Below are positions 12,995 through 57,619 of a stretch of DNA of 64,000 nt, in pieces (within the stretch, counting starts at the first letter, position 1; each line of letters starts with the position of its first letter). Under the pieces are notes generated by a model that was not told the origin of the DNA, searched no databases, and saw nothing but the letters and a program-made list of their open reading frames with translations. This stretch comes from a virus, in the IMG/VR virus record IMGVR_UViG_3300028377_000009, positions 1 through 64,000 of that record. The stretch is one strand, 5' to 3'. Both the position numbers and the translations under genes were made by a program.

Positions 12995-15268
12995 ATGGCA
13001 AAGCGCATAGACATACCACGTGACGACCTTCGATATCACCTCGAAGCCGGTTTGTCGTATGCTGATATTGCCGACAAGTATGGGTGCAGCGCATCCACGA
13101 TTAGTAAACGGGCAAAGGAGTACGGTTTGGATAAACCTTTGGAGTCAAGTGAAAATCGGAGTGACGATATGAGTGAAGATAAAAAGCCAGAGATGGGTAT
13201 CGGGTTGGACATTGGTACGATGAACCTTGTGTCCGCTCGTAAGATCGGTACGTCGGTTGAGACGAAACGTGTGCGTGATGCTTTCCTTGACCTCGATATC
13301 GACGCCAAGAAGATGCTCAAGCTGTCGGGTGTTAGTTTCATCGAATATGATGATCGCATTCTGATTTTGGGCGACCCCGCAATCGAAACAGCCAACCTGT
13401 TTAAGCGGGAAGCTCGGCGTCCCTTGTCACAGGGTCTGATTTCCTCTTCGGAAATTGATGCGCTCGAAGTCCTGTCGATTTTGATCGAACAGGTGGTAGG
13501 CAAGCCCCAAGAGGAGGGTGAAGTTTGCTACTATTCGATCCCTGCAGCCCCTCTGGATATGCCGGGTCAAGACGTCGTGTACCACGAGGCTGTGTTCGCA
13601 AAGATCCTCGACGAGCTAGGATACGACCCTATTTCGGGCAACGAGGCGATGGCGATCATTTATTCGGAATGCGCTAGCGACAATTTTAGCGGAATCGGCA
13701 TTAGCTTCGGTTCCGGGATGGTCAACTGCGCCCTTTCGTACATGACCATGCCGATCATGGAGTTTTCGTTGGCCCGATGCCTGTCTAAAGATTTCCCGAT
13801 TGATACGCCTTCTGGTATGAAACCAGTTTCGGGAATCCGACCCGGTGACTTGGTATTAGGTCAGGACGGAGCATATACCGAAGTCCTAGAAGTATTTAAC
13901 AACGGGCATCGTGAAGAACTTTATCAACTCCAACTAGAAGGTCTGCCCTTTGCACCGGTTGATGTTACAGGTGATCACAAAATTAGTGTTCGCCGTGGCG
14001 CTCAGTGGGAGTGGGTAGCAGCACAGGATGCTCGGGAGGGGGACATCGTAGGGGTACCTCGTATCCCCTACCGTGGGAACCACAGCTCGTACTATTTTTG
14101 CCGGGAAGATGGTCAAAATGTCACGGTTACGAAGTCTCGCAACTTGGGTAGATTTTTGGGGATGTTCTTAGGGGATGGCAGCACCTGTCTTTATAAGAAC
14201 GGACAGGGCAATTCTGGGGGTCGAGTTCGTTTGGCGTTTAACCGGAAGGATGCACAACTGGTCCAGAAATACCAAGATGTTATTAACGACCTCTTTGGTC
14301 GGTTTCCATCTGTGGTGTCTAGGACTGAGGTTGAAATGGATCTTATCAACCTTGAATACCATAAGATTGCAGACCATCTCAAGAGTAAATGTTATAATGG
14401 GGTGGGGGATAAGATCCTCCCGCTTCCTGTACACGAAATTCCCGATCAGATGGCAGTAGGGGTACTAGAGGGTCTATTAGATAGTGACGGGTCACGGACG
14501 GAAAAAGGTTTCGAGTTTTATAACACGTCTGAGACTCTTGTCCGCAGCATGAGTCACCTTCTGAATAGATTTGGCATCTGGCATACAATCGAGAAACGAG
14601 ATCCAAGGCAAGGTGGTGTAAACTCAAGAGGAGTTCAGATCGAGGGCCGTAAGGATTCTTACACAGTTCGTATCAGAGATGCGGTAGCGGTTTCCGTGTT
14701 GGGAGCCCTTATTTCCAAGGAGGGCAACTCTTTGCGGTACCCCTCTGGGCATTTTGCGGAAAGGAAAGTGCTTTCCGTTGAGACTATCCCCTATGACGAT
14801 GATGTGTATGATATTTCCATTGGAGAATCCCATCATGCTTTCGCGACGTGGGGTGCTGTCGTACACAACTGCGGCGACTGGATTGACCAGAACGCTTCGA
14901 AGGCTGTGGGTTCGACCGCTTCCCGCCTCTGTTCCATCAAAGAGAAAGGGATAGACCTCACGAACCCTCAAAGCCGCGAAGAGGAAGCGCTGGTTGTCTA
15001 TTACAAGTCACTGATCAAATACGCCCTCGACAATATCGGCAAGCAGTTCAAGAACACACAGAATGACACGGAACTCAAAGAAGCTATCCCCATCATCGTG
15101 TCCGGGGGAACATCGTTGGCCGGTGGATTCCTCGACTTGTTCAAGGAAGTATTCGAAAAACAGCGCAAGCGTTTTCCAATTGAGATCAGTGAAATTCGAC
15201 AAGCCGACGACCCCATGACCTCCGTGGCTCAGGGACTGTTGGTCCAATCCATGCAAGAATATGTTTAA
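12995..15268 (+). CDS. HTH-actin-like ATPase (ParM/MreB superfamily) interrupted by an intein
   Basis: A 757-residue precursor. Residues 15-48 form a helix-turn-helix (GLSYADIADKYGCSASTI). Residues 66-80 (GIGLDIGTMNLVSAR) are the phosphate-1 loop of the actin/Hsp70 ATPase fold, about 232-248 (GIGISFGSGMVNCALS) is phosphate-2, and IIVSGGTSLAGGF near residue 700 is the adenosine motif. Residues 262-625 are an intein. Splicing would give a 393-residue protein in which SLAR is joined to CGDWID. Actin-like filaments segregate or position DNA. Fusion to a DNA-binding HTH could replace a separate ParR adaptor, which is inference. Confidence 0.9.
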   Translation: MAKRIDIPRDDLRYHLEAGLSYADIADKYGCSASTISKRAKEYGLDKPLESSENRSDDMSEDKKPEMGIGLDIGTMNLVSARKIGTSVETKRVRDAFLDLDIDAKKMLKLSGVSFIEYDDRILILGDPAIETANLFKREARRPLSQGLISSSEIDALEVLSILIEQVVGKPQEEGEVCYYSIPAAPLDMPGQDVVYHEAVFAKILDELGYDPISGNEAMAIIYSECASDNFSGIGISFGSGMVNCALSYMTMPIMEFSLARCLSKDFPIDTPSGMKPVSGIRPGDLVLGQDGAYTEVLEVFNNGHREELYQLQLEGLPFAPVDVTGDHKISVRRGAQWEWVAAQDAREGDIVGVPRIPYRGNHSSYYFCREDGQNVTVTKSRNLGRFLGMFLGDGSTCLYKNGQGNSGGRVRLAFNRKDAQLVQKYQDVINDLFGRFPSVVSRTEVEMDLINLEYHKIADHLKSKCYNGVGDKILPLPVHEIPDQMAVGVLEGLLDSDGSRTEKGFEFYNTSETLVRSMSHLLNRFGIWHTIEKRDPRQGGVNSRGVQIEGRKDSYTVRIRDAVAVSVLGALISKEGNSLRYPSGHFAERKVLSVETIPYDDDVYDISIGESHHAFATWGAVVHNCGDWIDQNASKAVGSTASRLCSIKEKGIDLTNPQSREEEALVVYYKSLIKYALDNIGKQFKNTQNDTELKEAIPIIVSGGTSLAGGFLDLFKEVFEKQRKRFPIEISEIRQADDPMTSVAQGLLVQSMQEYV
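13778..14869 (+). other. Intein with LAGLIDADG homing endonuclease
   Basis: A 364-residue intein, from Cys1 (13778-13780) to the final Asn (14867-14869), followed by Cys as the +1 extein residue. Block A is CLSKDFPIDTPSGM...GDLVLG. Block B is DVTGDHKISV with the TxxH motif. Two dodecapeptide motifs, LGMFLGDGS near residue 387 and LEGLLDSDGS near 491, mark a LAGLIDADG endonuclease. Block F is VYDISIGESHHAFAT and block G is AVVHN before C. All catalytic residues needed for splicing are present. By eye, codons within the intein are more AT-rich than in the surrounding extein (TTA, AGA, ATA), consistent with later acquisition. Confidence 0.95.
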
Positions 15269-18046: not shown

Positions 18047-18118
18047 CGCCCGGTATTTTATTGATATTTGCCTTCAGTGGTTGATCGCATATCATTTAAG
18101 CGATAAGTGAGGTTCGTC

Positions 18119-21100
18119 GTGGCATTTGGACCATTCGATAGTTACGCTCCACCCGGAGTATACACAAAAACACAAACTCAGCAAGGTTCGTCAGGCCCTC
18201 CAACGGGGAACCGGATTCCGGTTCTTATTGGTGTCGGTCGGGAGACTCTATCCCAAGACGACTTTGAGCTGGTGCGTGGTTCTTCGGCATCGGTAGATCA
18301 ACGTATTGTCAATGAGGACGTGAACGACAGGTTCATCCTCGACAATGCTAACCCTGATAACCCTGTTTTGGGTGCGAAGACTGGCAGTGAAGTCAAGTTT
18401 CGTGTCCAGAATTATCCGATTGTATCGGGTAATGGGCAAGGGTTAGTGACGAGTGATACTTCCGATATCACAGTAACCGTAGATGGCGATCTCGTGTCGC
18501 CTGCTGCTGTAGACGGTGCGCGGGGTGTTATCACCTTGCAAGTGCCGCCACAGACCGGTGAAGATGTGCGTGTTACGTATTTCTTCAACCGTACCGACAC
18601 GAAGTTCACCGATGACCTTTCGGGTCAGGTGGCTGAAGAGTCCGCAATCCTCCTTTCGTCGCAAGTCGAAGACTATGAGATTCTATCCGGGGCTAACGTC
18701 CTGAATCTCAACGTGGACGGTGCAGACGCAAGTGTGACCCTCACGACAGGTGCGACTCAGAGCGCCAACAATGTGGTCAACGACATTAACGCTGCGGGCA
18801 TTGTAGGTCTTACCGCCAGTGTAGCTGCGGACAACGAAGGCAATAACCGAATTCAGTTGGAAGCCCAAGGGTCGATTGAGATCCTTTCGGGAACAGCTAA
18901 CTCGGTTCTTGGTTTTGGTGCTGGTCAAAAAACCACGCGCAACCGTACCTTTTACGTCTATCAGGCTCCGATTGTTACGGGCGATAACGGCGGGATCATC
19001 ACGACGGATCCTTCCGATGTTGTGGTCAAGGTAGACGGCAACCAAGTAGTGCCCGAAGAGGTTGATGGAACTAACGGAGCGGTCACGCTCAAGCAGGCTC
19101 CGATTGTAGGGGCCGTCGTTTCCGTTGAGTATTTCCACAACACGTGGCAAGACACTTTCGATTACCTCCCCAATACGGGAATTCGGAAAGTCCAACAGGT
19201 TGGTATCAGCCCCGGACGCACCGATTATATCGAGGGTAACGATTACGTAGTTGACGAGAACGGTCGACTTCTCTGGGGTTCGGCGGCAACGATCGAATCT
19301 GGCCTGCATACGGCAGGCACGGAGTTTTTCGACGAGACTCAGATCAGTGCATCGCTGGTTGATAACCGGATGTATTTCGAAGAGACCAGCCGATTTGTAG
19401 ATCGTTCGGTCAGCCCGGCTGTGACCTCCGACACGACTGTCCTACTAGGTAATGTACCTACGACGGGTAACGGACGGAGCACGTCTCTAGACTCGAAGCT
19501 CTTTGGCAATGTATCGAACAGCCGGGTAGGCGTGAGCACGCACCGGGCCGATCTTGTTAAAGTATACCACGGAGACAATCTATCCGAGGCGATGGCTAAT
19601 GGCCCGGTAGGGGTTGTGGACGTTGATCCTGAAACCCGTAAAGTGACGGTTGAAGATGCTATTCCGCCGAGTCACACGGTGTGGGCAACGTATTGGTACA
19701 ACCAGCTTCAGGATGATGAACTAACCTTCGAAGTCTTGAGCCAGTCGACGGCTACGACACCCGGCCAGTATAGCGTTTACAGTTCCCGCAGAGGCGAGCA
19801 GCTTTTCGGGGTTGATTTCGGTACCACCGGAGTTAACGAAACGATCCAGTGGCCTTCCGGTGTGGAAACTAACCCGGACGCATTCATTGCGGGCGCTGAT
19901 GGTGTGGACGAAACCGTGACGGTGACGTTCAAAGAGATCGGGGCCGAGCCTGCTGTATTCACGAATTACGCGGCTGACCCGTATTCGCTCTATGCGGATG
20001 CGTCTGACACCTTGTATGTGGATGTAGACGGTAACAGCCTAACGGTAGACCTTAACCAGTCTGCTTTCGGTGTGACCGTTTCTGACGGACATGACGATGG
20101 TTCGACTTACGACATCGTTGCTACCGAAAACGACGTATTTGAGTTTGAAGTAGACGGTACGGACTATAGCGTCACTCTTACAGCAGGGTTGGGCCGAACA
20201 GGTGCTGACATTGCCGAAGATATCTGGCGGTCGGTACCGACTGATGCTACTATTACTGGTACATCAACGGAGAGCTTTGCATTCACCGATGCGTCCGATG
20301 ATCTTTTCGATTTTGACATGAACGGTACCCCCGTTAATGTTGATTTTGGAACATTGACAGGTCAAACGGCTGCACAATTAGCTACGTTGATTAACACCGA
20401 GATCACCAACGCAAATCTTACGGTAGGTGATCCGGCAGTTGTTGGCAACGACGGACATGCGGTTGATGATGGTTCGGGTAAAGTCCAACTCTTGGCTTCT
20501 GAAAGCCTTACGATTGGTACAGGCACAGCCAACCCGGTCCTTGGTTTCACCAACGGTGATTCGCATGAGAACATTCTGGTAGCGAGCTACCGGGATTCGG
20601 GTGCTGATGATGAGCGTTTCCTCCTTCGATCGAAAGTGTCTCCTTCGGGACCTGCAGATGCATCCCATATCAGGGTGCAGGACGGCAACGCTAACGGGAC
20701 TCTCGGTTTCACTGACTTCCAGTATGCCGAGGGCACCGAGAAAGCTGTTAACAAAGGAGCTACGCTTCTTAGTGGTGCGATCTCGGCCTCAGACCTTGCT
20801 TCCCTTAATAGCGCTTCTACCGCAGACTTTGTTGTAGCGGTAAATGGCACTGAGCATACGGTGGATCTATCGAGCCTAGCCTCGGTAAGCGCAATCCAGA
20901 CCGCTTTGGATGCAGCCCTCACAGATGCCACGGTGGCCGTAGAAGATACGGACAAGATCCGCATCACTTCCAACTTGGACACGAACCAGAGTCGCATTGA
21001 GGTTCGTGCCGGAACAGCTAACCAGTACGTTGGATTCAGCGAAGGTGATAGTGCCTCGCAACGACGTGTTGAAGCCCACGAGATCGCTGCTGTTCTGAAC

Positions 21101-22672
21101 AGTCAAGCCTCGGATTGGTACAGCCCAACGGCTGCTACCGAGTACATTGCATCGGCCTTTGCTGATACGTTTGTAAAGCCGGGCGAAGGGACTTACCTCC
21201 GCTTGACTACATTCGCGGAAGGTTCCACAGCATCCTTCACGTTTGGTACCGGAACGGATTCGGCACTTAACGATACGGGCATTGGGATCGAAGCCGGTGA
21301 TTCGGTTGCGGGAACAGATGCACGGGATGGGTTCGATGTGGCCTCTTCGGCTACCAACGGCTCAACCGGCGAAGGTGTGGTTGGTCAAACGTATCAGGAT
21401 TCCAACACGGGACTTCGGTTCACGATTTTGGAGGCTGGTACCGGCGATTATACGGACGGACAGTCTTTCACACTGAATGTGTCGGATACTTTCACTACGG
21501 GATTCAGCAAAGTCGTCAAGGCCGTTCCGGGCACTGAAGTTCGGGTGGACAACACGACGGATATCGGAGTAGGTGATACGGCGGTAGTAACGACTTACAA
21601 CAAGTCAGGTGCCGAGCCGGGAATCGGAGATTTCTACTATATCTCTTACGAATACGAAAAGACGGATTTCTCAACCCGTCTGTTCACTCGGTTCCGGGAC
21701 ATTCAGCGCAATTACGGCAAGCTGTCCGCTGAGAACCCGCTTACTTTGGCGTCATACCTCGCTGTGTTGAACGGTGCGGTCATCGTCGGGTGCAAGCAGG
21801 TACTAAAGACCCCCGGCTTCAGTCAAGCTCCTACAGCGGCGTTCATGGACGCTTTGGAAGAGCTTAAAAAGCCGCTGGCTTCGGGCATTACCCCTGATCT
21901 TTTGGTCCCTCTTACGACGGACCCGGATGTTATGGGTGCCTATGTTAACCACTCCGAGATCCAGTCGAGCCAGCGTTTCCGTCAGGAACGCCGGTGCATC
22001 TTCGGTGTTGCTTCGGGCACTCGTCCTGAAGACGCGGCTAACATCGCGAAGAGCCTCAAGAGCGGACGGTCGATTCTCGTATACCCCGATAGCGCAATCG
22101 TCACACTGACGAACGAGCTTGGGGAAGATGAGAGTTTCATCGTCGACGGAACGTATGTAGCGGCGGCACTTGCCGGTGTTCTGGTAAGTCCGCAGTTCGA
22201 TGTTGCAACCCCGTTAACACGACGTCGCCTTGTCGGTTTCAGACGCCTTAACCGATCGCTTGATGAGATCGAAAAGAACCAGCTTGCTGTCGGTGGTGTT
22301 ACAGTCCTCGAAGATCGAGGATCGTTCCTACAGGTACGTGACGGTCTAACCACCGACGTTACCAACCGGTTCACGTCAACGCCTTCGATTGTCGCTATTA
22401 AGGATCACGTCCAGCAACAGGCACGCAAGAGCTTGGACCGTTTCATCGGTTTGAAGTTCCTCACCAGCCGGGCGCAGGATGTAGAGTTGGCCCTTTCGGG
22501 ACTACTTAACACCCTTATGGAGCAGCAGATCATTGTAGACTTCAAGGGTGTTCGTGCCGAGCCGGATCCTAACGATCCGACCGTACTTCGAGTCAGTGCT
22601 TTTTACGCACCGATCTTCCCCTTGAAGTACATCCCGATCACGTACACGATCGGAAGCGCGAACTCACTGTAA
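18119..22672 (+). CDS. Tail sheath protein, repeat-expanded
   Basis: A 1517-residue protein from the GTG at 18119 (AAGTGAGG six bases upstream). The N-terminus has the PPGVYT motif of sheath proteins. The last 330 residues (PDVMGAYVNHSEIQSSQRF, VTLTNELGEDESFIVDGTYVA, FLTSRAQDVELALSGLL) match the conserved C-terminal sheath domain that polymerises around the tail tube. Between them lie about 1000 residues of inserted beta modules: two copies of a (F/Y)xVxxxPIV...VDG...VDG module (residues about 100-190 and 280-365) and several SLxIxxGTANxxLGF units. Usual sheaths are 400-700 residues, so this one probably builds a strongly decorated tail. Confidence 0.93.
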   Translation: MAFGPFDSYAPPGVYTKTQTQQGSSGPPTGNRIPVLIGVGRETLSQDDFELVRGSSASVDQRIVNEDVNDRFILDNANPDNPVLGAKTGSEVKFRVQNYPIVSGNGQGLVTSDTSDITVTVDGDLVSPAAVDGARGVITLQVPPQTGEDVRVTYFFNRTDTKFTDDLSGQVAEESAILLSSQVEDYEILSGANVLNLNVDGADASVTLTTGATQSANNVVNDINAAGIVGLTASVAADNEGNNRIQLEAQGSIEILSGTANSVLGFGAGQKTTRNRTFYVYQAPIVTGDNGGIITTDPSDVVVKVDGNQVVPEEVDGTNGAVTLKQAPIVGAVVSVEYFHNTWQDTFDYLPNTGIRKVQQVGISPGRTDYIEGNDYVVDENGRLLWGSAATIESGLHTAGTEFFDETQISASLVDNRMYFEETSRFVDRSVSPAVTSDTTVLLGNVPTTGNGRSTSLDSKLFGNVSNSRVGVSTHRADLVKVYHGDNLSEAMANGPVGVVDVDPETRKVTVEDAIPPSHTVWATYWYNQLQDDELTFEVLSQSTATTPGQYSVYSSRRGEQLFGVDFGTTGVNETIQWPSGVETNPDAFIAGADGVDETVTVTFKEIGAEPAVFTNYAADPYSLYADASDTLYVDVDGNSLTVDLNQSAFGVTVSDGHDDGSTYDIVATENDVFEFEVDGTDYSVTLTAGLGRTGADIAEDIWRSVPTDATITGTSTESFAFTDASDDLFDFDMNGTPVNVDFGTLTGQTAAQLATLINTEITNANLTVGDPAVVGNDGHAVDDGSGKVQLLASESLTIGTGTANPVLGFTNGDSHENILVASYRDSGADDERFLLRSKVSPSGPADASHIRVQDGNANGTLGFTDFQYAEGTEKAVNKGATLLSGAISASDLASLNSASTADFVVAVNGTEHTVDLSSLASVSAIQTALDAALTDATVAVEDTDKIRITSNLDTNQSRIEVRAGTANQYVGFSEGDSASQRRVEAHEIAAVLNSQASDWYSPTAATEYIASAFADTFVKPGEGTYLRLTTFAEGSTASFTFGTGTDSALNDTGIGIEAGDSVAGTDARDGFDVASSATNGSTGEGVVGQTYQDSNTGLRFTILEAGTGDYTDGQSFTLNVSDTFTTGFSKVVKAVPGTEVRVDNTTDIGVGDTAVVTTYNKSGAEPGIGDFYYISYEYEKTDFSTRLFTRFRDIQRNYGKLSAENPLTLASYLAVLNGAVIVGCKQVLKTPGFSQAPTAAFMDALEELKKPLASGITPDLLVPLTTDPDVMGAYVNHSEIQSSQRFRQERRCIFGVASGTRPEDAANIAKSLKSGRSILVYPDSAIVTLTNELGEDESFIVDGTYVAAALAGVLVSPQFDVATPLTRRRLVGFRRLNRSLDEIEKNQLAVGGVTVLEDRGSFLQVRDGLTTDVTNRFTSTPSIVAIKDHVQQQARKSLDRFIGLKFLTSRAQDVELALSGLLNTLMEQQIIVDFKGVRAEPDPNDPTVLRVSAFYAPIFPLKYIPITYTIGSANSL

Positions 22673-22683
22673 ACGGATGCAAC

Positions 22684-22710
22684 GGGGGCCATAAGGCCCC
22701 CTCAACTTGT
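22684..22710 (+). terminator. Rho-independent terminator after the sheath gene
   Basis: A seven-base-pair perfect stem, GGGGGCC (22684-22690) and GGCCCCC (22695-22701), with an ATAA loop. The T-rich stretch (AATTTTTAG) is some 10 bases further on, so termination may be partial. Confidence 0.6.
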
Positions 22711-22739
22711 AATTTTTAGACACTAGAAGGTGCCCTGTT

Positions 22740-23549
22740 ATGACTGATCTACGCAAAGCCATCATCAAGCTCGCCTATGACAATCCTGAGATCCGAGAGG
22801 ACCTCGTGCCCCTTCTCCGGGATGCGGGCAACAAAGACACCTTCAAAATCGCAGAATTCCCCCACGAGGGTTACGCTATGAGACGCACCGAAACGCACAG
22901 ACGCCGCTTTGCCTTCGACACCTCCGACGCCGAGGACCACTTGGCCGGTTGGAACCGAGGGTACACCGAAAATTACGGCACCCGTCAGCACATCCCTGGA
23001 TTCCTCACCTGGGCTTGGGATCTGAGAAAGGAAACCCTCAAGGATCTTGATCGTAGAAATTACGGGGCCATCGCTGAGGAGTTGGCGTACAGCGCGAAAC
23101 AGGATCCCGCCTATCGGGATGAGTCCTATGCGGATCTTGAAGCTGGGTTCGTCGACTATCTCAAAAACTGGCGCACCGAACTCCTTGAGGCCCTTGATGA
23201 GAGTCTTTTCGACAGGAACGCGTCGAGCCGAAACCGGCAGGCCGACGGATCCACATTCACGTGCCCCCACTGTGAGGGTAAGGTGCTCGAGCAGACAAAA
23301 TACTGCGTGAGTTGCCAAAAGAAGGTCAAGAAATCTGCCACACGCAGGCGAGCTCGATTCGAAGAAGGTGTCCCCGCCGATCCCACGCAGAACATGACGC
23401 CCGAGGAAGCGGCGGAGTGGGAGGCGATGAACGAGAAATACAAGGACAAGCTCAAGAAAGAGCGTGAAAGCGCACTACGCGATGATCTTATTCGGCTTGC
23501 GTACAATAAGCCCGAGCTTCGTGGGGCGCTCCTTCCCATTCTAAAGTAA
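22740..23549 (+). CDS. Module A protein 6 with zinc ribbon and a second module A at the C-terminus
   Basis: A 269-residue protein. It begins LRKAIIKLAYDNPEIREDLV (module A variant). A central helical region has many aromatic and charged residues. At about residues 180-195, FTCPHCEGKVLEQTKYCVSC is a four-Cys zinc ribbon followed by a QKKVKK basic stretch. The last 25 residues (LRDDLIRLAYNKPELRGALL) are a second, complete module A copy that ends at the stop codon. The open frame after the stop continues with a second zinc ribbon (see the pseudogene at 23550), so this gene and the relic are a tandem duplication. Confidence 0.85.
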   Translation: MTDLRKAIIKLAYDNPEIREDLVPLLRDAGNKDTFKIAEFPHEGYAMRRTETHRRRFAFDTSDAEDHLAGWNRGYTENYGTRQHIPGFLTWAWDLRKETLKDLDRRNYGAIAEELAYSAKQDPAYRDESYADLEAGFVDYLKNWRTELLEALDESLFDRNASSRNRQADGSTFTCPHCEGKVLEQTKYCVSCQKKVKKSATRRRARFEEGVPADPTQNMTPEEAAEWEAMNEKYKDKLKKERESALRDDLIRLAYNKPELRGALLPILK

Positions 23550-25741: not shown

Positions 25742-26626
25742 ATGACGATCACAACCCCTTTGGCACGTCTTCGGAAGCTGGATTTCGTTTATACGGAACT
25801 CCAAAAGGCTTTCCCCGATACCGGTCCACACAATATGATGATCGCGGGCGGTGCGGTAAGGGACATCCTTACCGGTAACGACCCGAAGGACATCGACGTA
25901 TTTATCACCGGGGGTAACAAGCGTGGCGTCTTTGCCCGCCTCATGAAAGACAGTGTGGGGCAATTACTTCGCACCAAAGTCAGTCAGATCCTATCACATT
26001 TCAGCCCGACTCATCACGTATGGTCGGTTGTAGATTCCACGTCGATCACTCGTATCCAAGACAAGGATGCTGTGGTTGTGTTAGGTGAAGTGGTTGATAT
26101 CGATGAAGTAGATCGCCGTGACCGGATTGCTAACGGGCATATTGGACCAGACGACCCATTTGATACGACCCTTGATAGGGGTGGCGTTGCTTTTGGGTAT
26201 CCCGTCCAGATAATGTGCTACACGCATTGTAGGACGCTGGATGAAATCGTAGCAACATTTGACCTTGACATTTGTATGTATGGGTACAATAGAGAGCGAT
26301 TGATTACAGTGGACAGTTCGCCGCCGCTCGATGTTTTGGACAAAAAGCTCAAGGGCGAGTTGCCCGTTGAAATTTTACATACACACGACCGGATGCGGAC
26401 GTACTCCCGGCTGAAACGTTTTCATGATAAGTACGGCGTGGATACGACGGAGGCTAAAGCGAAGCTCCGAGACCTGCCGTTGTCACAGACGGAGGTCGTG
26501 TTTGAGTACGATGTGGAAAAGGCGGAGATAAAGCGGCAAAAAGTTGAACCAGCAGTTGAAGTTAGCGATCACGGTCTTAGTGATCTGTGGGCAAGCCCGC
26601 CCGATATATCGGGTTTATTTGGTTAA
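25742..26626 (+). CDS. Nucleotidyltransferase-like protein (CCA-adding head-domain type)
   Basis: A 294-residue protein. Residues 31-56 (NMMIAGGAVRDILTGNDPKD then IDVFI) show GG...R and Asp50-x-Asp52, the nucleotide-transfer site of the poly(A)/CCA polymerase family. The RNA-binding helical region of a full CCA enzyme is missing; the C-terminus is basic and charged (VEKAEIKRQKVEP). This makes it a minimal nucleotidyltransferase with unknown substrate. It is a different subtype from the 11115 enzyme. GroEL follows 14 bases downstream. Confidence 0.8.
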   Translation: MTITTPLARLRKLDFVYTELQKAFPDTGPHNMMIAGGAVRDILTGNDPKDIDVFITGGNKRGVFARLMKDSVGQLLRTKVSQILSHFSPTHHVWSVVDSTSITRIQDKDAVVVLGEVVDIDEVDRRDRIANGHIGPDDPFDTTLDRGGVAFGYPVQIMCYTHCRTLDEIVATFDLDICMYGYNRERLITVDSSPPLDVLDKKLKGELPVEILHTHDRMRTYSRLKRFHDKYGVDTTEAKAKLRDLPLSQTEVVFEYDVEKAEIKRQKVEPAVEVSDHGLSDLWASPPDISGLFG

Positions 26627-26640
26627 TTACGGAGGAATTT

Positions 26641-28284
26641 GTGGGACAGAAAAAGACGATTCTATTTGACAACAAAGCGCTCAATCGTTTGCAAGCGGGC
26701 GTAAACACGTTGGCCGATGCGGTAAAGGTAACGCTGGGGCCGCGTGGACGTAACGTTGCGTTGCAAAAGCAGTTCGGTCAGCCTAACGTCACCAAAGACG
26801 GCGTGTCCGTGGCTCGTGAAATCGAAATCGAAGACCGATTCGAGAACATGGGCGCTCAGACGATCAAAGAGGCGGCTATCCGCACGGCTGAAATGGCAGG
26901 TGACGGTACGACGACCGCAACGGTTATCGCACAGGCGCTTTTCAACGAAGCCCGCAAGATGGTGGCTTCAGGACTTTCCCCGATCCCTCTGAAGCGCGGT
27001 ATGGACCGGGCCGTAGCCGAGGGTGTGAATTACCTCCGTTACCTCGCCAAAGAGGTCGATAACGTCGAAGAAATCAAATGGGTTGCTACTATCTCTTCGA
27101 ACGGCGACGAAGCCCTCGGTGAAATGATCGCCGAAGCGATGGAAAAAGTCGGCAAGGGTGGTGTGATCTCCGTTGAAGAAGGCAAGTCCACCAACACCGT
27201 TCTGGAGTTTTCCGAGGGTATGCAACTGGACCGGGGATACCTGAACCCGGACTTCGCCCGAATGGAAGAAGATGGTGTCGTGAGCCTAGAGAACCCTCTG
27301 GTTCTGTTGGCTGACAAGCGCATTTCATCCGCCCAAGACATCATGAGTGCGATGGAGCACGCGGCATCCCAGCGACGCCCCTTGTTCGTCGTAGCACATG
27401 ATGTGGAAGGTGAAGCCCTTGCGATGCTGATTACCAACCACTTGCAGGGTAAGCTCAAGGCATGTGCCGTGAAAGCTCCACGCATTGGGGACAAGCGGTC
27501 GCAGGTACTCGAAGACCTTGCGGTCCTCACGGGTGGTCAAGTTATTTCCCCGGAAAAGGGAATCACGTTCAAGTCGGTACATCCCGGTGACTATCTGGGT
27601 GGTTGCGCCACGGCGTCCGCTGCCAAGCAACACACGACCTTCTTGGGTGGTGACGGCGAAGATGATGCTATTGCACAACGCATCAAAGTCCTTCGCGGAC
27701 AGGTCAAACTTTCCGGTAGCCCGCACGATCAGGAATTCACCCAACAGCGTATCAGCCAGCTTGGTGGTGGTATGGCTGTGATCCGGGTTGGTGCCAATTC
27801 GGAGGTTGAACTCAAGGAGTACAAGGCCCGTGTGGAAGACGCCCTCAGCGCCACGAAAGCCGCTGTGAAAGGTGGTGTGTGTCCCGGAGGAGGTTGCACA
27901 TTGATCGAAGTCTCCAACATGCTCAACATCTTGGCGGAGGACGAGGAGACGGTGTTCGTCAACGAGGAAGAGAAAGCTGGTTGGGTTCTGGTAGCCAAGG
28001 CTCTTGAAGCCCCGTTCCAGCAAATCGTGAAAAATGCGGGCCTTTCGCCGGAAGTGCTGTTGCACCAGTACCGCACGGAAGTCGAAAAGCGTGAGACGCC
28101 GGATCTTGTGTTCGATGTGAACGCCGAAGAGATTCGTCCCTGCTTTGAAGCTGGTATCGTTGACCCGGTACTGGTTGTCGAAGAGGGAATCAAGAACGCG
28201 GTGTCGGTATCGTCTCTTTTGATTACGACTTCGTGTGCTATCGGATTCGCTTCGAAGGACAATAAGCCCGACGAAGATGAATAA
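26641..28284 (+). CDS. groEL: Chaperonin GroEL (phage-encoded, full length)
   Basis: A 547-residue protein from the GTG at 26641, with a strong GGAGGA Shine-Dalgarno five bases upstream. An upstream in-frame start is rejected because it overlaps the previous gene and adds no GroEL sequence. The family core is intact: LADAVKVTLGPRGRNV, TKDGVSVAREIE, AGDGTTTATV with the ATPase Asp at residue 88, and the GGGCTL region near the C-terminus of the intermediate domain. The C-terminus is acidic (DNKPDEDE) rather than the usual Gly-Gly-Met tail. No GroES is seen in the window. It would form ring chaperonins for folding phage proteins. Confidence 0.96.
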   Translation: MGQKKTILFDNKALNRLQAGVNTLADAVKVTLGPRGRNVALQKQFGQPNVTKDGVSVAREIEIEDRFENMGAQTIKEAAIRTAEMAGDGTTTATVIAQALFNEARKMVASGLSPIPLKRGMDRAVAEGVNYLRYLAKEVDNVEEIKWVATISSNGDEALGEMIAEAMEKVGKGGVISVEEGKSTNTVLEFSEGMQLDRGYLNPDFARMEEDGVVSLENPLVLLADKRISSAQDIMSAMEHAASQRRPLFVVAHDVEGEALAMLITNHLQGKLKACAVKAPRIGDKRSQVLEDLAVLTGGQVISPEKGITFKSVHPGDYLGGCATASAAKQHTTFLGGDGEDDAIAQRIKVLRGQVKLSGSPHDQEFTQQRISQLGGGMAVIRVGANSEVELKEYKARVEDALSATKAAVKGGVCPGGGCTLIEVSNMLNILAEDEETVFVNEEEKAGWVLVAKALEAPFQQIVKNAGLSPEVLLHQYRTEVEKRETPDLVFDVNAEEIRPCFEAGIVDPVLVVEEGIKNAVSVSSLLITTSCAIGFASKDNKPDEDE

Positions 28285-30018: not shown

Positions 30019-30076
30019 TTAATGCGAGGGTGGTATGTCCTTCGCATAAATTATCCTGAGACTCAAGGAATCATAA

Positions 30077-32116
30077 ATGCGACACTACACGACATTAGCC
30101 TTACTTGTTCTGGTCTTGACGGCCTTTGGTTGTACCGAAGAGGTTCCGACCTATCCCGTAACCACGGACACCGTAACCAGCCCTGATGCTGGTACGGACA
30201 CTTACACTGAAGAAGTTCGGGTGGACAGCGACACGGGAATTGTTCCTGATACGGACAGTGGCACCGATCAGGAAACCGGTTTGGATACGGGTGAAGATGC
30301 GGGTTCGGATACCGATACCGGAGAGCAAGACATCGGTACAGATTCGGGTACGGACACGGACACCGACACAGATTCGGGTACGGACACGGACACCGACACA
30401 GATTCGGGTACGGACACGGACACCGACACAGATTCGGGTACGGAGGACACCAGTACCGATACGGGAGACGATGGTGGTGATACGGGAGACGAGGTAGAAA
30501 CGGACACCCCTGAGATTGATTGTGATCCGGGGTACGAGGTGGTCAATGGTGCGTGCGCCAATATCGATGAGTGCAACGACCCCAATGTTTGTGGTCCCAA
30601 CGCAACTTGTGCCGATACCGAAGGCGATTACGACTGTACCTGTGACGCGGGCTATGCGGATGTGGCTGGTACCTGTGAGGATGTGAACGAATGCGACGAC
30701 CCCAACGTTTGTGGAAACGGTACCGAATGCAACAACACGCTGGGCGGATATGAGTGTTTGAACGTGGATGAGTGTGTTGACGGTACGGATTCCTGCAGCG
30801 CTGGAACCGAATGTATAGACGGTGATCCTCTTAATGGGGAACAGGCTTTCACTTGCGCCAACGTGGATGAGTGCAGCAACGGGTCCGCCAATTGCCAAAC
30901 GGGAACCACCTGCCAAGATCTCGACCCTAACACAGACAACGATACTTACGCTTGCGTAGATAACAACGAGTGCGCCAACGGCACAGCGGTTTGCGATTCA
31001 AACGCAACATGCACAAACACTTACGGATCATTTTCATGTGCTTGCGATAGCGGCTTCACAGGCGACGGGTTCAGTTGCCGGGAGCTAAACGTTTGCGGCG
31101 ACGGTATCGTGGATTCGGCAGAGGTTTGTGACGAGGGTGCGAGCACGGGCGACGTATGTGTCCCCGGATATGGACAGACTTGCACTTGGTGTGATTCGTG
31201 TACCCAAGTGGTGACGGAAACCGGGGCGACTTGCGGTAACGGCAACCTCGACGTTAATGAAGGCGAAGAATGTGATGGAGGGCCGGGTTGTACGGCATCC
31301 TGTGCTGTTGCTACTGGATACACGTGCATCGGGGGTGCCCCGTGCCTGAATCCCTGTGAACAGTACGTGGGGGATTTCACAGCAAACACAAACTCAGACT
31401 TGATTACCCTTTCCGGGTATTGTTCGGTAGACGGTAATGTAACCATCACCGGAACCGCTACCCAACTGTTTGAAGTCCACACGTTGCGCGAGATTCTGGG
31501 GACTTTTCGTCTGGACCTCAACAATAGCACGGGAAATAAGGCACGTTTTGAATACGTCAATAACGAAGTGGCTTTTGCGGATTTGGAAACCGTCACGAGT
31601 AATTTTGAAATGGATAATTTCGTGGTCACGGATCTCGTCACTAACCAAGGCGATGCTGTTGATTTTGTGGGCTTTCCCTCTTTGACCACTATTGGTGGTG
31701 ACATGTTTATCCGCGATGGGGCCAAAGAGGCTAACACCACTAACCCCTTGACAATGGATGCTTTCAACGCACTCCTTACGGTTGGTGGGGATTTACAAAT
31801 CATTTTTACGGATTTTTACACGGTGTCTGGTTTTCAGTCCGTCACGTCCGTGGGTGGCGTAATGTATATTCAACAAAACCCGGATCTTGTTTCGTTGGGC
31901 GGAGCGTTTTCCAGTTCATTGACGGTGCAGGGTGCGAATGCCGCCAGTCAGTACATTATTGATATCCAAGGGAACCACCCCGATCTGGTAGATTACCAGA
32001 ATGGACAATACCAAGGAGATGGCTGTGGTGTGTGTGATAAAGCCCAAGAGAATTCGTACCAGCATTGCCCTAGCCACGATACCAACGCTCCAGTGACTTG
32101 CCGCGTAAAATCCTAG
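30077..32116 (+). CDS. Secreted, probable lipoprotein with EGF-like repeats and receptor L-like domain
   Basis: A 679-residue protein. Residues 1-19 form a signal peptide ending TAFGC, a borderline lipobox that would lipidate Cys19. Residues 20-145 are an Asp/Thr/Gly/Ser-rich linker with three perfect 10-residue repeats. From about 150 come at least five EGF-like units of the calcium-binding type (NIDECNDPNVCGPNATCADT, DVNECDDPNVC, NVDEC..., NNECANGTAVC). Near 340, CGDGIVDSAEVCDEG is the Cys-rich repeat common in Myxococcota-type surface proteins. The C-terminal 230 residues resemble a receptor L domain (leucine-rich-like beta helix: LTTIGGDMFI, SVTSVGGVMYI). Expected on the outer surface of the infected cell. 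Roles in adhesion, receptor masking or superinfection exclusion are guesses. Confidence 0.88.
   Translation: MRHYTTLALLVLVLTAFGCTEEVPTYPVTTDTVTSPDAGTDTYTEEVRVDSDTGIVPDTDSGTDQETGLDTGEDAGSDTDTGEQDIGTDSGTDTDTDTDSGTDTDTDTDSGTDTDTDTDSGTEDTSTDTGDDGGDTGDEVETDTPEIDCDPGYEVVNGACANIDECNDPNVCGPNATCADTEGDYDCTCDAGYADVAGTCEDVNECDDPNVCGNGTECNNTLGGYECLNVDECVDGTDSCSAGTECIDGDPLNGEQAFTCANVDECSNGSANCQTGTTCQDLDPNTDNDTYACVDNNECANGTAVCDSNATCTNTYGSFSCACDSGFTGDGFSCRELNVCGDGIVDSAEVCDEGASTGDVCVPGYGQTCTWCDSCTQVVTETGATCGNGNLDVNEGEECDGGPGCTASCAVATGYTCIGGAPCLNPCEQYVGDFTANTNSDLITLSGYCSVDGNVTITGTATQLFEVHTLREILGTFRLDLNNSTGNKARFEYVNNEVAFADLETVTSNFEMDNFVVTDLVTNQGDAVDFVGFPSLTTIGGDMFIRDGAKEANTTNPLTMDAFNALLTVGGDLQIIFTDFYTVSGFQSVTSVGGVMYIQQNPDLVSLGGAFSSSLTVQGANAASQYIIDIQGNHPDLVDYQNGQYQGDGCGVCDKAQENSYQHCPSHDTNAPVTCRVKS
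30341..30444 (+). repeat. Tandem 30-base repeats inside the lipoprotein gene
   Basis: Three perfect 30-base copies (30341-30370, 30371-30400, 30401-30430) and a 14-base partial fourth. Each encodes DSGTDTDTDT. The lack of any base difference between copies points to recent expansion by slippage or unequal recombination. Confidence 0.95.
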
Positions 32117-32171: not shown

Positions 32172-33026
32172 ATGAGAGCTTTAGTTTTATCAGGAGGTGC
32201 CGCCCACGGTGCTTTTCAGGCCGGGGCGATTCAGGCCCTCTACGAAATAGGGTGGATACCCGAGATCATTTGCGGATCATCGGTGGGGGCCATCAATGCC
32301 GCTGGTCTAGCTTCGGGTAAATCACCGGAGCACCTGTGTGAACTCTGGCGCAAGGTTACGAGTCGGGATGTGTACCGGTGGCGTCCCCCTAACCAATGGC
32401 TGAAGTTCTGGAAATGGAGCCATGTCCTCGATACCACACCTCTTTCGAAACTCCTCAACAAATACGTAGATTTCGACGAACTTCAGCACTCACCGCAAAC
32501 CGTTACGTGTTTCAGTGTGGACGTCCGTACTGGACACCTTCAGGGCTACGCTAACAGGGTAACAGGGTTGCCCCCGAAGTTCCGTCGCCTTTACCGTCCA
32601 GACTTGCTTGACGTGGATGCTGTGATGTCCTCGACAGCAATCCCTTTGGTGTTTCCGTGGTCCCGTGGCGAATGGGATGGATCTCTGTTACAGTATGCTC
32701 CGTTGAAACCGGCTGTCTTGTTAGGGGCCACCGAGATCGTGGTAGTATCTCTCGAAATTCATGAGCCGGAACCCGCGTTGCCTACGGGAGTGGTACAGAC
32801 GGCTCTTCGCATCCTCGATATTAGTTCTATGTCAAGGTTACGTAGTGATCTCCGAACGCTCCTTGCGAGGAACAACCAAGACGGGTACAGGAATATAGAC
32901 GTGCGGGTGATCCGCCCTTTACGGAACCTTGGGTACTCCAAGCTGAATTTCAATTCCCCGTTGAAAGAGGCGGCCATCGCACACGGACGTAATTGCGCTC
33001 ACCAGATCATGAGTCAAGATGTTTGA
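32172..33026 (+). CDS. Patatin-like phospholipase
   Basis: A 284-residue protein with a complete patatin catalytic dyad: oxyanion loop SGGAAHGAF (residues 7-15), nucleophile motif GSSVG (Ser37), and Asp169 in WDGSL. It would act as an acyl hydrolase on membrane lipids. No signal peptide is present, so it is cytoplasmic unless delivered. The last residues (KEAAIAHGRNCAHQIM) are helical. Phage-encoded patatins are unusual; lysis aid or membrane remodelling are possible roles. A GGAGG-like start context (GTGGAGGCCGTATG) supports the start. The stop overlaps the next start. Confidence 0.9.
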   Translation: MRALVLSGGAAHGAFQAGAIQALYEIGWIPEIICGSSVGAINAAGLASGKSPEHLCELWRKVTSRDVYRWRPPNQWLKFWKWSHVLDTTPLSKLLNKYVDFDELQHSPQTVTCFSVDVRTGHLQGYANRVTGLPPKFRRLYRPDLLDVDAVMSSTAIPLVFPWSRGEWDGSLLQYAPLKPAVLLGATEIVVVSLEIHEPEPALPTGVVQTALRILDISSMSRLRSDLRTLLARNNQDGYRNIDVRVIRPLRNLGYSKLNFNSPLKEAAIAHGRNCAHQIMSQDV

Positions 33027-33333
33027 ATTCGACAACGACGGACCGCGTTATTACATACGGTTGGAACAGAAGACCGATTACCTAAACCTTCTGTACGTGC
33101 CGCACGCCGACTTTGATACCGCGCAGGCCAACCAATCACTAATGCTTCTATTTCGGCAGTATGCCGATCCCTGCGGTACGATAGCCTATTTCGATCCCCA
33201 CGAGTATTGCATCATTTCGAGCCGGGCCAAGGAATACAAGGGGTTGCGCGTTTATTTGTACGACGATCAGGCTCCTTACGACGGTTATTATTTGGACGGA
33301 CGGTTTATTGAAGCACTGGAGGAAGTTCCATGA
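33019..33333 (+). CDS. Hypothetical protein coupled to patatin
   Basis: A 104-residue acidic, Tyr-rich protein (GPRYYIRLEQKTDYLNLLYV ... RVYLYDDQAPYDGYYL). It overlaps the patatin gene by eight bases and the next gene by four. Tight coupling to patatin suggests a partner or regulator. No family is recognised. Confidence 0.75.
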   Translation: MFEFDNDGPRYYIRLEQKTDYLNLLYVPHADFDTAQANQSLMLLFRQYADPCGTIAYFDPHEYCIISSRAKEYKGLRVYLYDDQAPYDGYYLDGRFIEALEEVP

Positions 33334-33704
33334 GCGTTTTCAAATGGTCGATCAATCACAAGGCCCGTATGGCCGATGTGCAACAGTTAATCGAAACCTT
33401 CGGCTTTAAGCCGACAGGGGACAAGGACCACATGTACGCCCACAAGATTAGCGCGGGGACGTACTGGCGGGAGATGAAAGTTAGGCTACGCCCGGAAGAG
33501 GCGGTTTTCTTCTTGCTCAAAGAGGAGGAGTCGACCACTGAAACTTACTTTGACTATCTAGTGAAAGCGAGTTTCTTGATGGGGCAATTGGCCGGAAAGA
33601 TTGAGCTTTTGCCCGTCAAAGAGGAAGGGGTGGAGTTACCCGAAGCCGACTATGACGATGAGGACGACGATGACGAGGAGCTAGCGCAAGGGGAGACGTC
33701 TTGA
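33330..33704 (+). CDS. Hypothetical protein with acidic C-terminus
   Basis: A 124-residue protein in a four-base overlap with the previous gene. The first 95 residues are alpha/beta (FKWSINHKARMADVQQLIE, YWREMKVRLRPEEAVFFLL). The last 25 are almost entirely Asp/Glu (DYDDEDDDDEELAQGE), a typical charged tail that could mimic DNA or stabilise a partner. No family is recognised. Confidence 0.75.
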   Translation: MSVFKWSINHKARMADVQQLIETFGFKPTGDKDHMYAHKISAGTYWREMKVRLRPEEAVFFLLKEEESTTETYFDYLVKASFLMGQLAGKIELLPVKEEGVELPEADYDDEDDDDEELAQGETS

Positions 33705-33739: not shown

Positions 33740-33979
33740 ATGTCCGATGAATTAGACACATACCGTGAAACGGTTGCGAATATGAAGCTCGGTGTATTAA
33801 TAGCCGAGCTATTGGATTTACGGCTTGCCCCAGAGCCAGACAGTTCGAAAGAAAAGATCACGCAGGTCCAGAAGGTTAGGGAAGTTACTTTAGAGCTTAA
33901 CAGGCGAGAAGTGGTAGAAGATGACAAGTCAAGCGAACCTCGTAGAACCAAAATCCGCAGTCTCAAAAACGTCTTTTGA
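33740..33979 (+). CDS. Small hypothetical protein
   Basis: A 79-residue helical, charged protein (YRETVANMKLGVLIAELLDL ... REVTLELNRREVVEDD). It precedes the DHH gene. The 35-base gap upstream carries an ATACGTAT palindrome (33707-33714). No family is recognised. Confidence 0.65.
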   Translation: MSDELDTYRETVANMKLGVLIAELLDLRLAPEPDSSKEKITQVQKVREVTLELNRREVVEDDKSSEPRRTKIRSLKNVF

Positions 33980-33989
33980 CGAGTCTGAT

Positions 33990-35030
33990 ATGGCTTCAGT
34001 TGATACATCGGATCGCTACAGGCGGTTCGATGAATTTTTTTCGGATTGCCCCGAAGACTTGAAGGTGTGTATTGTGATGCAACACACACCGGATCCCGAT
34101 GCCATTGGTAGCGCTCTAGGTTTGGGTTGGTTGTTGGAGTGCAAATATGGACTGATGAGTGACATTTATTACGCGGGCCAGATTTCCCATGCCCAGAATC
34201 AGACGGAAGTCAACGTCCTCAATGTGCAGATGAAACAGCGAGACGACTTTGACCCCACCAAGTATTCGACCTATGTGACGGTAGATACGGTACCGCAAAA
34301 CACGGGTTTCGAAGACTTGATCGACGAATGGCATTGCGTATTTGACCACCACCAGTTTGAATTGGATCTCCCCGTTACGGATATTCGTGCGTGCGGTGCT
34401 TGTTCATCGATCATCTGGGATTACATCCGGGAATTCGAGATGGACTTTTCGACCGAAAGGGGCGCTGTCGTAGCTACCGCCCTCTTGTTCGGGATCGTAA
34501 ATGATACCCACCAATTTGGTGACGACAACGTAAGTAATCTGGATCGGGATGCGTGGGCGGCCCTCCACCCGTACATCGACACGAAAAAGTATCGTGATAT
34601 TCTGGACCACCCCTTGCCACCTTACCTGTTCAAGCTGAGGGCCTTGGCCGCCGAGAACATGGTGTCGGAAGCGTCTATTTTGATTTCCTATCTGGGGATT
34701 CTATCCGACAAGCGGCGTGACGCACTTCCGATTATTTCGGATGAGTTCTTGCGCATGGAGGGTGTGGAAACGGTTGTGGTGTTCGCTATGATTGACGGGT
34801 GCATTCAGGCGTCCGTTCGTAGCCGCAACAGTTCGGTAAACGTCCACACGTTCTGTCAGAAGGTCTTCGGACCCGATGTAGCAGGCGGCAAGCAGGGGGC
34901 CGGTGGAGCCAAAGTGCCTATCGGATTCCTTTACTCTCCCGACGACGATGATGAGCTTCGCGAAAAGCTCAGTGGGTTCGTCAAAGATACCTTGACCAAG
35001 CGTATCATCCGCCACCTTTCCGGTGCCTAA
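33990..35030 (+). CDS. DHH-family phosphoesterase (nanoRNase / pAp phosphatase / cyclic-dinucleotide type)
   Basis: A 346-residue protein from the ATG at 33990; an in-frame ATG at 33921 would add a low-complexity extension overlapping the previous gene. Motifs: MQHTPDPDAIGSALGLGW (motif I), VTVDTVP (motif II), VFDHHQFE (the DHH signature, motif III), LLFGIVNDTHQFG (motif IV), and a DHHA1-like C-terminal half with GGAKVP. Two metal ions would support hydrolysis of short oligonucleotides or of linear/cyclic dinucleotides. It may recycle RNA ends or degrade a host second messenger. Confidence 0.87.
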   Translation: MASVDTSDRYRRFDEFFSDCPEDLKVCIVMQHTPDPDAIGSALGLGWLLECKYGLMSDIYYAGQISHAQNQTEVNVLNVQMKQRDDFDPTKYSTYVTVDTVPQNTGFEDLIDEWHCVFDHHQFELDLPVTDIRACGACSSIIWDYIREFEMDFSTERGAVVATALLFGIVNDTHQFGDDNVSNLDRDAWAALHPYIDTKKYRDILDHPLPPYLFKLRALAAENMVSEASILISYLGILSDKRRDALPIISDEFLRMEGVETVVVFAMIDGCIQASVRSRNSSVNVHTFCQKVFGPDVAGGKQGAGGAKVPIGFLYSPDDDDELREKLSGFVKDTLTKRIIRHLSGA

Positions 35031-36469: not shown

Positions 36470-37270
36470 ATGAAATTTACATTTTTAGGTACGGGTGGCG
36501 CGTTCAGCCGGTCACACGAAAATTTTCACAACAACGTCTTGATCCAAACGGATTCGGGCAAAAAACTGTTGATTGATTGCGGGGGCACGGCCCTCGAAAG
36601 TTTAGATGAACTTGGGGTTGATCCTCTTGATATCGACGGGGTGATCGTAACACATGTCCATGCAGATCACGTAGGCGGTCTTGAAGAATTAGGGTTCCGA
36701 GGCTTGTTCCTCGGTCCCAAGCAAAAGTTTGATATGTACGTACCGAACTTGCTGGTGCCCTCCAGAGCCGTCGTAGGTTACGATAGCGATGTTTACCCGG
36801 ACCTCTGGCACAATTGCCTTAAAGGCGGTATGGTACACATTCAGGACGCCGAAGGCAACGCGGTACAGGCCGATATGGACACGTATTTCAATGTCCACGT
36901 CTCCGAGTCCCCCAAGGATCCGATAAAGGTGGGAGGTATCAAGTTCATCTTTGTGAAGACGAACCACGTACCAAATAAAACCTCTTATGGCCTTGTATTG
37001 GAATCAGAGACGGGTACTACGGTGTTCTTCTCAGCGGACTCTACATCGGAACGGACAGTCGATCTTGAAGCCTTCGATATAGTGTTCCACGACTGTATGT
37101 TTATGCCGCGTTATCCGGCCACGGTCCACACCCATTTCGAAGAGATGGTGGATTTGCCTGAGTCCGTTCGCAAAAGAACGTACTTGATGCATTACGGAAA
37201 TCCTGATAACGCTCCCGAGGACTTACAGGGAATGCGTCTAGCGCGAAAGCACCAGACGTTCGAACTGTAA
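36470..37270 (+). CDS. Metallo-beta-lactamase-fold hydrolase (RNase Z-like)
   Basis: A 266-residue protein starting MKFTFLGTGGAF as RNase Z/BN-type enzymes do. THVHADHVGG (His62, His64, Asp66, His67) is the metal site, with later ligands in TNHVPNKTSYGL, FFSADS and HTHFE. The RNase Z exosite loop is not obvious, so the substrate may be RNA, a cyclic nucleotide or a phosphodiester. If it is RNase Z-like, it could process the 3' ends of the phage tRNAs. Confidence 0.85.
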   Translation: MKFTFLGTGGAFSRSHENFHNNVLIQTDSGKKLLIDCGGTALESLDELGVDPLDIDGVIVTHVHADHVGGLEELGFRGLFLGPKQKFDMYVPNLLVPSRAVVGYDSDVYPDLWHNCLKGGMVHIQDAEGNAVQADMDTYFNVHVSESPKDPIKVGGIKFIFVKTNHVPNKTSYGLVLESETGTTVFFSADSTSERTVDLEAFDIVFHDCMFMPRYPATVHTHFEEMVDLPESVRKRTYLMHYGNPDNAPEDLQGMRLARKHQTFEL

Positions 37271-46511: not shown

Positions 46512-47570
46512 CTAGAACGATACGTATTTTTGGTACGCTGTCAAGGTCCATTTTTCCCAAAATTCCGCATCCGCTTTTTCCGGCAAGTTGCTGTCCAAAT
46601 CCTTAGACTTCTCAATGAGTTCGGGCAGGTCGTCTTGAACTTGGTCGTAATCCACCTCACCCAACTTGACTTTCCGAAGGAAATCCCGGTCTTTCAGGGG
46701 GAATTGGATACCACCGGTTTTCAGAAGCTCTTCGAGTTCGAAGATGACCCGGTAAGCGTGGCTGACCGCTTTCCAATCAACCCCATCTTTCGCCCGCCGC
46801 GCACGATTACCGTATTTGCCGACGAGTTTCTTTAGAACTTTAGCCACATCTTGAATCTTGACCCGCATATCGAATTGCTTGCCATTGATTTCTAGCAATT
46901 CAATAGGATCGTCTTGGCCGTCGAGGTCCTTTTCTACGATGAAAACCACTTCGTTTTTGGGGATTTCATCGATGATATCTTCGACGCGGTAGTACGGGTT
47001 TTGGCCCATCAAGAAGTGCATCGCATCTTCTGTGGCCTGCAGCCGGGCACCTTTCATGCCATACTTTTTGGCTTGCCCCATACAGTAACCTACGAACGGC
47101 CACACATTGGACGTAAGCAGCTTGTCCTTGTTATCCCTTAGATTGGCGTACAGGTCCGTTGAGAAGACCACACAGTCGCCCGTAGCGTGTAGTAGCTCTA
47201 CGGCATAGGTCTGCCCTTTCATCGCATCTGAAAGGAACTTGCGGATTTCGATGAATTCGATATCGAGGTCGTCGGCACCGTTCCGCCCTTTGCCGCCACT
47301 GCTGGACGTAACCGTTTCCCGGTCTTTGCCGAGTACGATGCTGTTCAACGAGGACATGAAAACAGCTTTCAGGTCCAGATCGGAAGTGGGCGTAGTTGTG
47401 CCGTGCAGGTGTGACCCGAACTTGGATAGAAACAGGACATTTTCCAACGGCCCCTTTCGGAAGTCGTGGCCTTTACTGTTCACCAAGTCCGGGTCAACAA
47501 ACCCTACGGAATACAGACCGTTGGATTGAAGCTCCGTCGTCACTTGTTTTAGTAGTTCGTCATGTTTCAT
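46512..47570 (-). CDS. Nucleotidyltransferase (RlaP/YcgL-like, DNA polymerase beta superfamily)
   Basis: A 352-residue minus-strand protein. KFGSHLHGTTTPTSDLDLKA (residues 50-69) has the GS...Asp64-x-Asp66 motif of the polymerase-beta nucleotidyltransferase fold, of the type seen in phage and RNA-repair proteins. The C-terminal part is helical (DDPIELLEINGKQFDMRVKI ... LPEKADAEFWEKWTLTA). It is downstream of the ECF sigma gene with a 15-base gap and an AAAGG ribosome site, so the two are co-transcribed. It could nucleotidylate a protein or RNA. Confidence 0.8.
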   Translation of the reverse strand: MKHDELLKQVTTELQSNGLYSVGFVDPDLVNSKGHDFRKGPLENVLFLSKFGSHLHGTTTPTSDLDLKAVFMSSLNSIVLGKDRETVTSSSGGKGRNGADDLDIEFIEIRKFLSDAMKGQTYAVELLHATGDCVVFSTDLYANLRDNKDKLLTSNVWPFVGYCMGQAKKYGMKGARLQATEDAMHFLMGQNPYYRVEDIIDEIPKNEVVFIVEKDLDGQDDPIELLEINGKQFDMRVKIQDVAKVLKKLVGKYGNRARRAKDGVDWKAVSHAYRVIFELEELLKTGGIQFPLKDRDFLRKVKLGEVDYDQVQDDLPELIEKSKDLDSNLPEKADAEFWEKWTLTAYQKYVSF

Positions 47571-55288: not shown

Positions 55289-55352
55289 CTACCGCTATCT
55301 AGCGGTGAGACGACGAACCCTTACGATACTTATGACTACAAGAGAGGTACAG

Positions 55353-56090: not shown

Positions 56091-56102
56091 ATCGAGGACC
56101 GC

Positions 56103-56717: not shown

Positions 56718-56733
56718 TTTAGGGTAGGCAATT

Positions 56734-57375: not shown

Positions 57376-57386
57376 CTAGGAACATT

Positions 57387-57609: not shown

Positions 57610-57619
57610 CAAGATGTAT

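Follow-up and report, generated by a model that had tools for sequence, protein, structure and literature searches.

We found in a phage genome a gene whose product is very likely displayed on the surface of the infected cell as a mimic of host proteins. The gene lies in the window (the whole stretch of 64,000 nucleotides analysed here, part of a 73,466-bp virus record), and comparison with related records indicates that it belongs stably to a conserved locus of very large tailed phages and evolves fast. A role in superinfection exclusion is possible, at somewhat less than even odds, and we put the full reading, surface display together with exclusion, at a probability of about 0.4. Most phage-made surface proteins that have been studied are of small size. 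In this lineage, whose records extend up to 437 kb, a large host-like lipoprotein of several domains is retained at a constant genomic position, and its rod is exchanged among relatives. Phage-borne lipoproteins are already known; what is new is the size, the fusion of modules, the swapping of the rod and the 437-kb phage lineage.

The gene and the parts of its product are the following.

30065–30069, + strand: Shine-Dalgarno-like AAGGA, 7 nt 5' of the ATG of the lipoprotein gene
30077–32116, + strand: lipoprotein gene, ATG start, 679 aa (P0001), in a slot conserved in related phages
30077–30133, + strand: predicted signal peptide (aa 1-18) and lipidated Cys19, from the lipobox scan and the invariance of the Cys in the alignment
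30134–30520, + strand: Asp/Thr-rich linker, aa 20-148, from composition
30338–30444, + strand: perfect 30-bp tandem repeat, 3.6 copies, in frame (TDTDTDSGTD unit)
30560–30679, + strand: EGF unit 1, six Cys, Ca motif, aa 162-201
30680–30760, + strand: EGF unit 2, shortened, 4 Cys, aa 202-228
30761–30859, + strand: EGF unit 3, shortened, 4 Cys, aa 229-261
30860–30958, + strand: EGF unit 4, shortened, 4 Cys, aa 262-294
30959–31078, + strand: EGF unit 5, six Cys, aa 295-334
31079–31354, + strand: Myxococcota-type Cys-rich stretch, aa 335-426, from Myxococcota matches and alignment
31355–32113, + strand: L-like/LRR-type beta-solenoid domain, aa 427-679, from a host HMM, profile comparison and an orthologue model

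The signal peptide, MRHYTTLALLVLVLTAFG, is followed by Cys19, its end reading AFGC. A PROSITE-type lipobox pattern combined with a hydrophobicity test was applied to the 138 forward reading frames of ≥80 aa that the 73-kb record contains, and this ORF was the only one to pass. Moreover, the lipobox Cys is invariant across all homologues, in which TAC, TGC or SAC stands where P0001 has FGC. By these sequence criteria, the ORF at 30077–32116 carries a bacterial export and lipidation signal. The preliminary description had proposed a signal peptide with a lipobox and had named the lack of a lipidation or export signal as a ground for refutation; the signal was looked for and is present, and the claim stands. 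The protein contains 45 Cys in total, and together with the lipobox this points to an envelope protein rather than a cytoplasmic one. The base composition and codon use of the gene are those of the phage, which argues that it is not a recent stray.

The composition of the segment behind the signal peptide confirmed the expected Asp/Thr-rich linker: of its 129 residues, 34 are Asp and 36 are Thr, which is more than half. The perfect tandem repeat within it can be read as a sign of recent length change. The EGF_CA model (PF07645) matches P0001 with E=1.8e-14 and 54.1 bits, against a curated cut-off of 27, and the strict Ca-EGF motif occurs 5 times, compared with 0 in 2000 shuffles. At least five calcium-type EGF units had been claimed, and five were found at about 30560–31078. 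Units 1 and 5 are complete, and units 2-4 are shortened, ending past the fourth Cys (without Cys5-Cys6); the same is true in the orthologues.

The Pfam and NCBIfam models recognised neither aa 335-426 nor aa 427-679 of P0001, and the Pfam scan gave no Recep_L_domain (PF01030) in the phage protein. Of the domain searches suggested beforehand, EGF_CA thus scored over its cut-off, and the receptor L domain and the Cys-rich repeat gave no Pfam match. Listing the Cys-rich repeat and the L-like domain among the modules is nevertheless supported by Myxococcota homologues, profile comparison and modelling. The Cys-rich stretch has many Myxococcota homologues at the sequence level, and DUF4215 (PF13948; cut-off 27) reached 24.2 bits in the homologue of L044 and 19.7 bits in that of L047. 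As for the head, the host relatives L011 and L035 score slightly below the cut-off for Recep_L_domain (21.5 bits for the Myxococcota homologue L035, cut-off 21.8). An HMM of eight host L domains found the four phage proteins with E=3e-19, 2e-15, 2e-13 and 8e-6 in a four-sequence database. A joint host-phage L profile searched against the PDB ranked the L domains of ErbB4, ErbB3 and EGFR first (ErbB4 E=1.7e-4); a phage-only L profile returned no ErbB/EGFR L domain there. The AlphaFold model of the orthologue from the 437-kb phage had a pLDDT of 75 and a pTM of 0.76, exceeding 90 across large parts of the C-terminal half; most of the structures that it matched are LRR and L-type solenoids, and no match reached E<=0.001. 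For the P0001 C-terminus, modelling gave a pLDDT of 46, and the structures matched by this poor model were disregarded. The L-like fold of the head is suggested by the orthologue model and by weak structure matches, and L/LRR-like solenoid is the honest name for it.

The slot occupied by the gene is defined by its neighbours.

18107–22672, + strand: long protein with a tail sheath C-terminus, 1521 aa (phrog_2839, E=1.4e-31), 58-70% identical in relatives
26587–28284, + strand: cpn60 chaperonin, upstream anchor of the slot (Pfam E=6e-70), 55-73% identity in relatives
32172–33026, + strand: patatin-like phospholipase (Pfam), adjoining the lipoprotein gene
33921–35030, + strand: DHH-family phosphoesterase, downstream anchor of the slot, 59-73% identity in relatives

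The sheath makes up the last 350 residues of the 18107–22672 product, and its long N-terminal part is also kept in relatives. Relatives were recovered by scans with the sheath and with the DHH protein, and their backbone proteins are 55-73% identical. Homologous lipoproteins occupy this slot, in the order sheath, cpn60, lipoprotein, DHH, in four phage contigs of 437, 128, 57 and 39 kb, where a lipoprotein of 716-748 aa lies between cpn60 and DHH. Two of these are of the EGF type, IMGVR_UViG_3300021978_000001 (437,490 bp) and 3300012271_000928 (127,707 bp), and the others are a near-identical pair, L043/L044 (3300028410_000013 and 3300031269_000035). The sheath gene upstream of the lipoprotein is 60% identical in the 437-kb record, where the two genes lie side by side, and 58% identical in the 128-kb record. 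In addition, the window record shares 16,270 bp at 100% identity with a 120.5-kb IMG/VR contig. That the gene is phage-encoded, as first described, is borne out by this slot near the tail-sheath gene in several related phages.

An assembly error had been named as a possible refutation, and the modules, being host-like, would agree with an assembly chimera or host contamination of the contig. We consider this explanation refuted by the conserved synteny, and its probability practically nil, because homologues share the slot in four independent contigs, with the sheath upstream in two, and the codon use is that of the phage. The wider group does not depend on the lipoprotein, since it is absent from the slot of a more distant phage (L123, cpn60 52%), which has the patatin and DHH genes there. 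The patatin-like gene was not seen in L043/L044, and in L049 the DHH gene has no adjoining lipoprotein.

The product of 12995–15268 (+) is a Volactin-type actin homologue (PF25216, E=1e-70) with a helix-turn-helix N-terminus, apparently split by an intein with a LAGLIDADG endonuclease. At 36470–37270 (+) lies a metallo-beta-lactamase (MBL) protein, conserved in relatives, that matches the anti-Pycsar family Apyc1 (E=7e-33); a GyrB-like topoisomerase subunit (49878–51806, +), a full-length Lon protease (52444–54801, +) and, on the opposite strand, an RlaP-type RNA-repair protein (46512–47570, −) are also present. Two tRNA nucleotidyltransferase-like proteins (11115–12548 and 25742–26626) and six tRNA genes (55214–60142) were found. 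Outside the window, at 65270–66253 of the record (L002:3270-4253), an SPFH/Band 7 protein whose signal-like N-terminus ends in FNTGC matches the PHROG lipoprotein family phrog_200 and is possibly a second phage lipoprotein. A 99%-identical relative (L041), compared with window positions 22672–23358, lacks ~620 bp, among them the greater part of the gene at 22740–23549.

Within the locus, identity between relatives is 20-38% for the lipoprotein, compared with 55-73% for the sheath, cpn60 and DHH proteins. In the pair formed by the window phage and L044, for instance, these three reach 70-73% and the MBL protein reaches 61%, and the lipoproteins are 20% identical (BLAST, E=1e-9), aligned only over the Cys-rich and C-terminal parts. 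A small acidic neighbour (33330–33704) diverges as well (33-42% in relatives, 42% for L044). The lipoprotein is thus among the fastest-diverging genes of the locus, and not the sole fast gene. Its least conserved part is the L-like head, with 23-35% identity, which is what a recognition surface under conflict would be expected to show. The window phage shares 43-46% identity in the EGF rod, and only 27-35% in the C-terminal domain, with the 437-kb and 128-kb phages; both of these have the run of three shortened units and the EGF/Cys-rich junction seen in the window phage. L043/L044 have no EGF rod and carry MopE-type repeats (PF11617, E=4e-22) in that position, while retaining the lipobox, the acidic linker, the Cys-rich stretch and the C-terminal domain. 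Their lipoproteins (L043:19374-21611 and L044:12533-14770) differ by two indels of a single codon each, which lie in the linker and just past it, compared with no indels in five other genes; the changes between the two are too few for a usable dN/dS.

Matches to the C-terminal half of P0001 occur in 92 of 379 Myxococcota genomes. In Omnitrophota, which as a single control phylum offers a limited comparison, 3 of 145 genomes match, solely via the Cys-rich part. L011 and L035, which give the best L-like matches, are themselves probable lipoproteins with acidic linkers. In the sampled Myxococcota genomes the modules occur on separate proteins: an L domain joined to EGF or Cys-rich repeats was found in 0 of 80 sampled module-bearing ORFs. 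Most of these ORFs came from Myxococcota and a few from Omnitrophota or from unrelated viral contigs, and many were truncated at locus ends. On this partial sample, the fusion may be an invention of the phages. The architecture, first called eukaryotic-like, is better called Myxococcota-like. It had also been said to point to the host group; the genome counts agree with this, the evidence being indirect, and the phage lineage probably infects Myxococcota or relatives.

The architecture had further been called very unusual for a phage, and no similar protein was found in 50,697 deposited phage records. P0001 had no match in PHROGs, structural families included, and no report of EGF-type phage lipoproteins was found in the open-access literature. 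A single-sequence scan of IMG/VR, which needs exact short peptides, gave nothing with P0001, and an EGF plus Cys-rich profile scan returned just the two EGF-type phages already found. A cpn60 profile scan yielded 80 chaperonins, of which one was informative, that of L123, which has no lipoprotein. MopE-only viral contigs (L052-L064) were set aside, as they have no L-like head.

By sequence, the protein is built of an acidic flexible linker, a disulfide-rich rod (EGF or MopE), a Cys-rich collar and an L/LRR-like head. We propose that during infection it would be exported, form disulfide bonds and become anchored in the outer membrane, and that its linker and rod would hold the head beyond the cell surface as in host lipoproteins. 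The head, probably copied from the host's own lipoprotein repertoire, would occupy or shield a host surface partner, leaving rival phages unable to adsorb while the long infection runs. Display and exclusion are favoured by the slot and plan common to four related contigs, of which two have EGF rods and two have MopE rods, and by the acidic linker and L-like head shared with the Myxococcota lipoproteins L011 and L035; a host-derived head that changes much faster than the backbone genes would fit a surface-conflict protein. Superinfection exclusion by phage lipoproteins is known, as for Llp of T5 (PMC9586334), and surface modification against rivals has been proposed for jumbo phages (PMC7824862). 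Counting against exclusion here, the exclusion lipoproteins known so far are of small size, and the site of action of Llp is the periplasm (PMC9586334).

Rapid divergence would agree with adhesion or immune-type conflict too, and the main rival to exclusion is that the protein is an adhesion or recognition receptor working like the Myxococcus self-recognition receptor TraA, a polymorphic contact protein of the phage that makes the infected cell stick to kin or prey and aids local spread or feeding. Anchor, Cys-rich stalk and variable head follow the design logic described for TraA (PMC6372800), variability is greatest in the head, and the rod is swapped among relatives; yet the Pfam scan of P0001 found no PA14 domain, no MYXO-CTERM was seen in the parts examined and the C-terminus has no sorting helix, and we regard this role as rather unlikely. 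The protein might instead be a host lipoprotein kept for fitness, helping the infected cell, for instance through calcium or metal binding or through attachment to nutrients or matrix in a long or carrier-state infection. The EGF_CA and MopE rods both belong to Ca- or metal-binding families, and many further cell-like genes (cpn60, Lon, GyrB) are found in these phages. Such a service gene would not be expected among the fastest-changing genes, however, nor to swap its rod while keeping its head, and we hold this to be unlikely. A receptor-binding or capsid-decorating part of the virion would agree with the tail-sheath gene ~7 kb away and with the rapid divergence common in receptor-binding proteins, but the signal peptide, lipobox and 45 Cys imply export out of the cytoplasm, the site of virion assembly, and a structural PHROG match is absent; this reading is very improbable.

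If displayed, the lipoprotein would open a direct way to study how giant phages control the surface of the cells in which they reside, would serve as a marker for phages of Myxococcota-like hosts, and would allow a long-standing question, namely why cell-like surface genes are carried by large phages, to be tested in a laboratory strain. More speculatively, and with the odds well against it, large phages may keep their own polymorphic, module-swapping receptor on infected social or predatory bacteria, fused from three host lipoprotein modules and controlling contact or re-infection.

Among known proteins, the Myxococcota L-domain lipoproteins (L011 in G369, L035 in G248) likewise have a signal peptide followed by Cys and an acidic low-complexity linker, of Asp/Ser/Thr in their case, and their L-like repeats share with those of the phages the start motif EYSGDF/QYVGDF ... 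GY.S..G; unlike the phage protein, they have no EGF or Cys-rich rod. The Myxococcota EGF-repeat proteins (L003 from Kofleriaceae and L004 from Myxococcales, the latter a probable lipoprotein like the phage protein) have tandem Ca-type EGF units, but these are complete, whereas three in a row are shortened in the phage, and the L-like head is absent. The L domains of ErbB, EGFR and the insulin receptor resemble the head in that the mixed host-phage profile matches ErbB4 and the model gives LRR/L-type solenoids; in contrast, the phage-only profile matches none of these L domains, and Pfam Recep_L gives no hit in the phage protein. TraA has been proposed to present its variable recognition domain at the cell surface by means of a stalk of Cys-rich repeats (PMC6372800); its head is of the PA14 type and its sorting is by MYXO-CTERM, where the phage protein has an L-like head and a lipobox. 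T5 Llp is small and periplasmic and jams FhuA (PMC9586334), whereas the phage protein has 679 aa and is stalked and modular, and no sequence similarity between Llp and P0001 was noted; both are envelope lipoproteins encoded by a phage, and the two may act alike.
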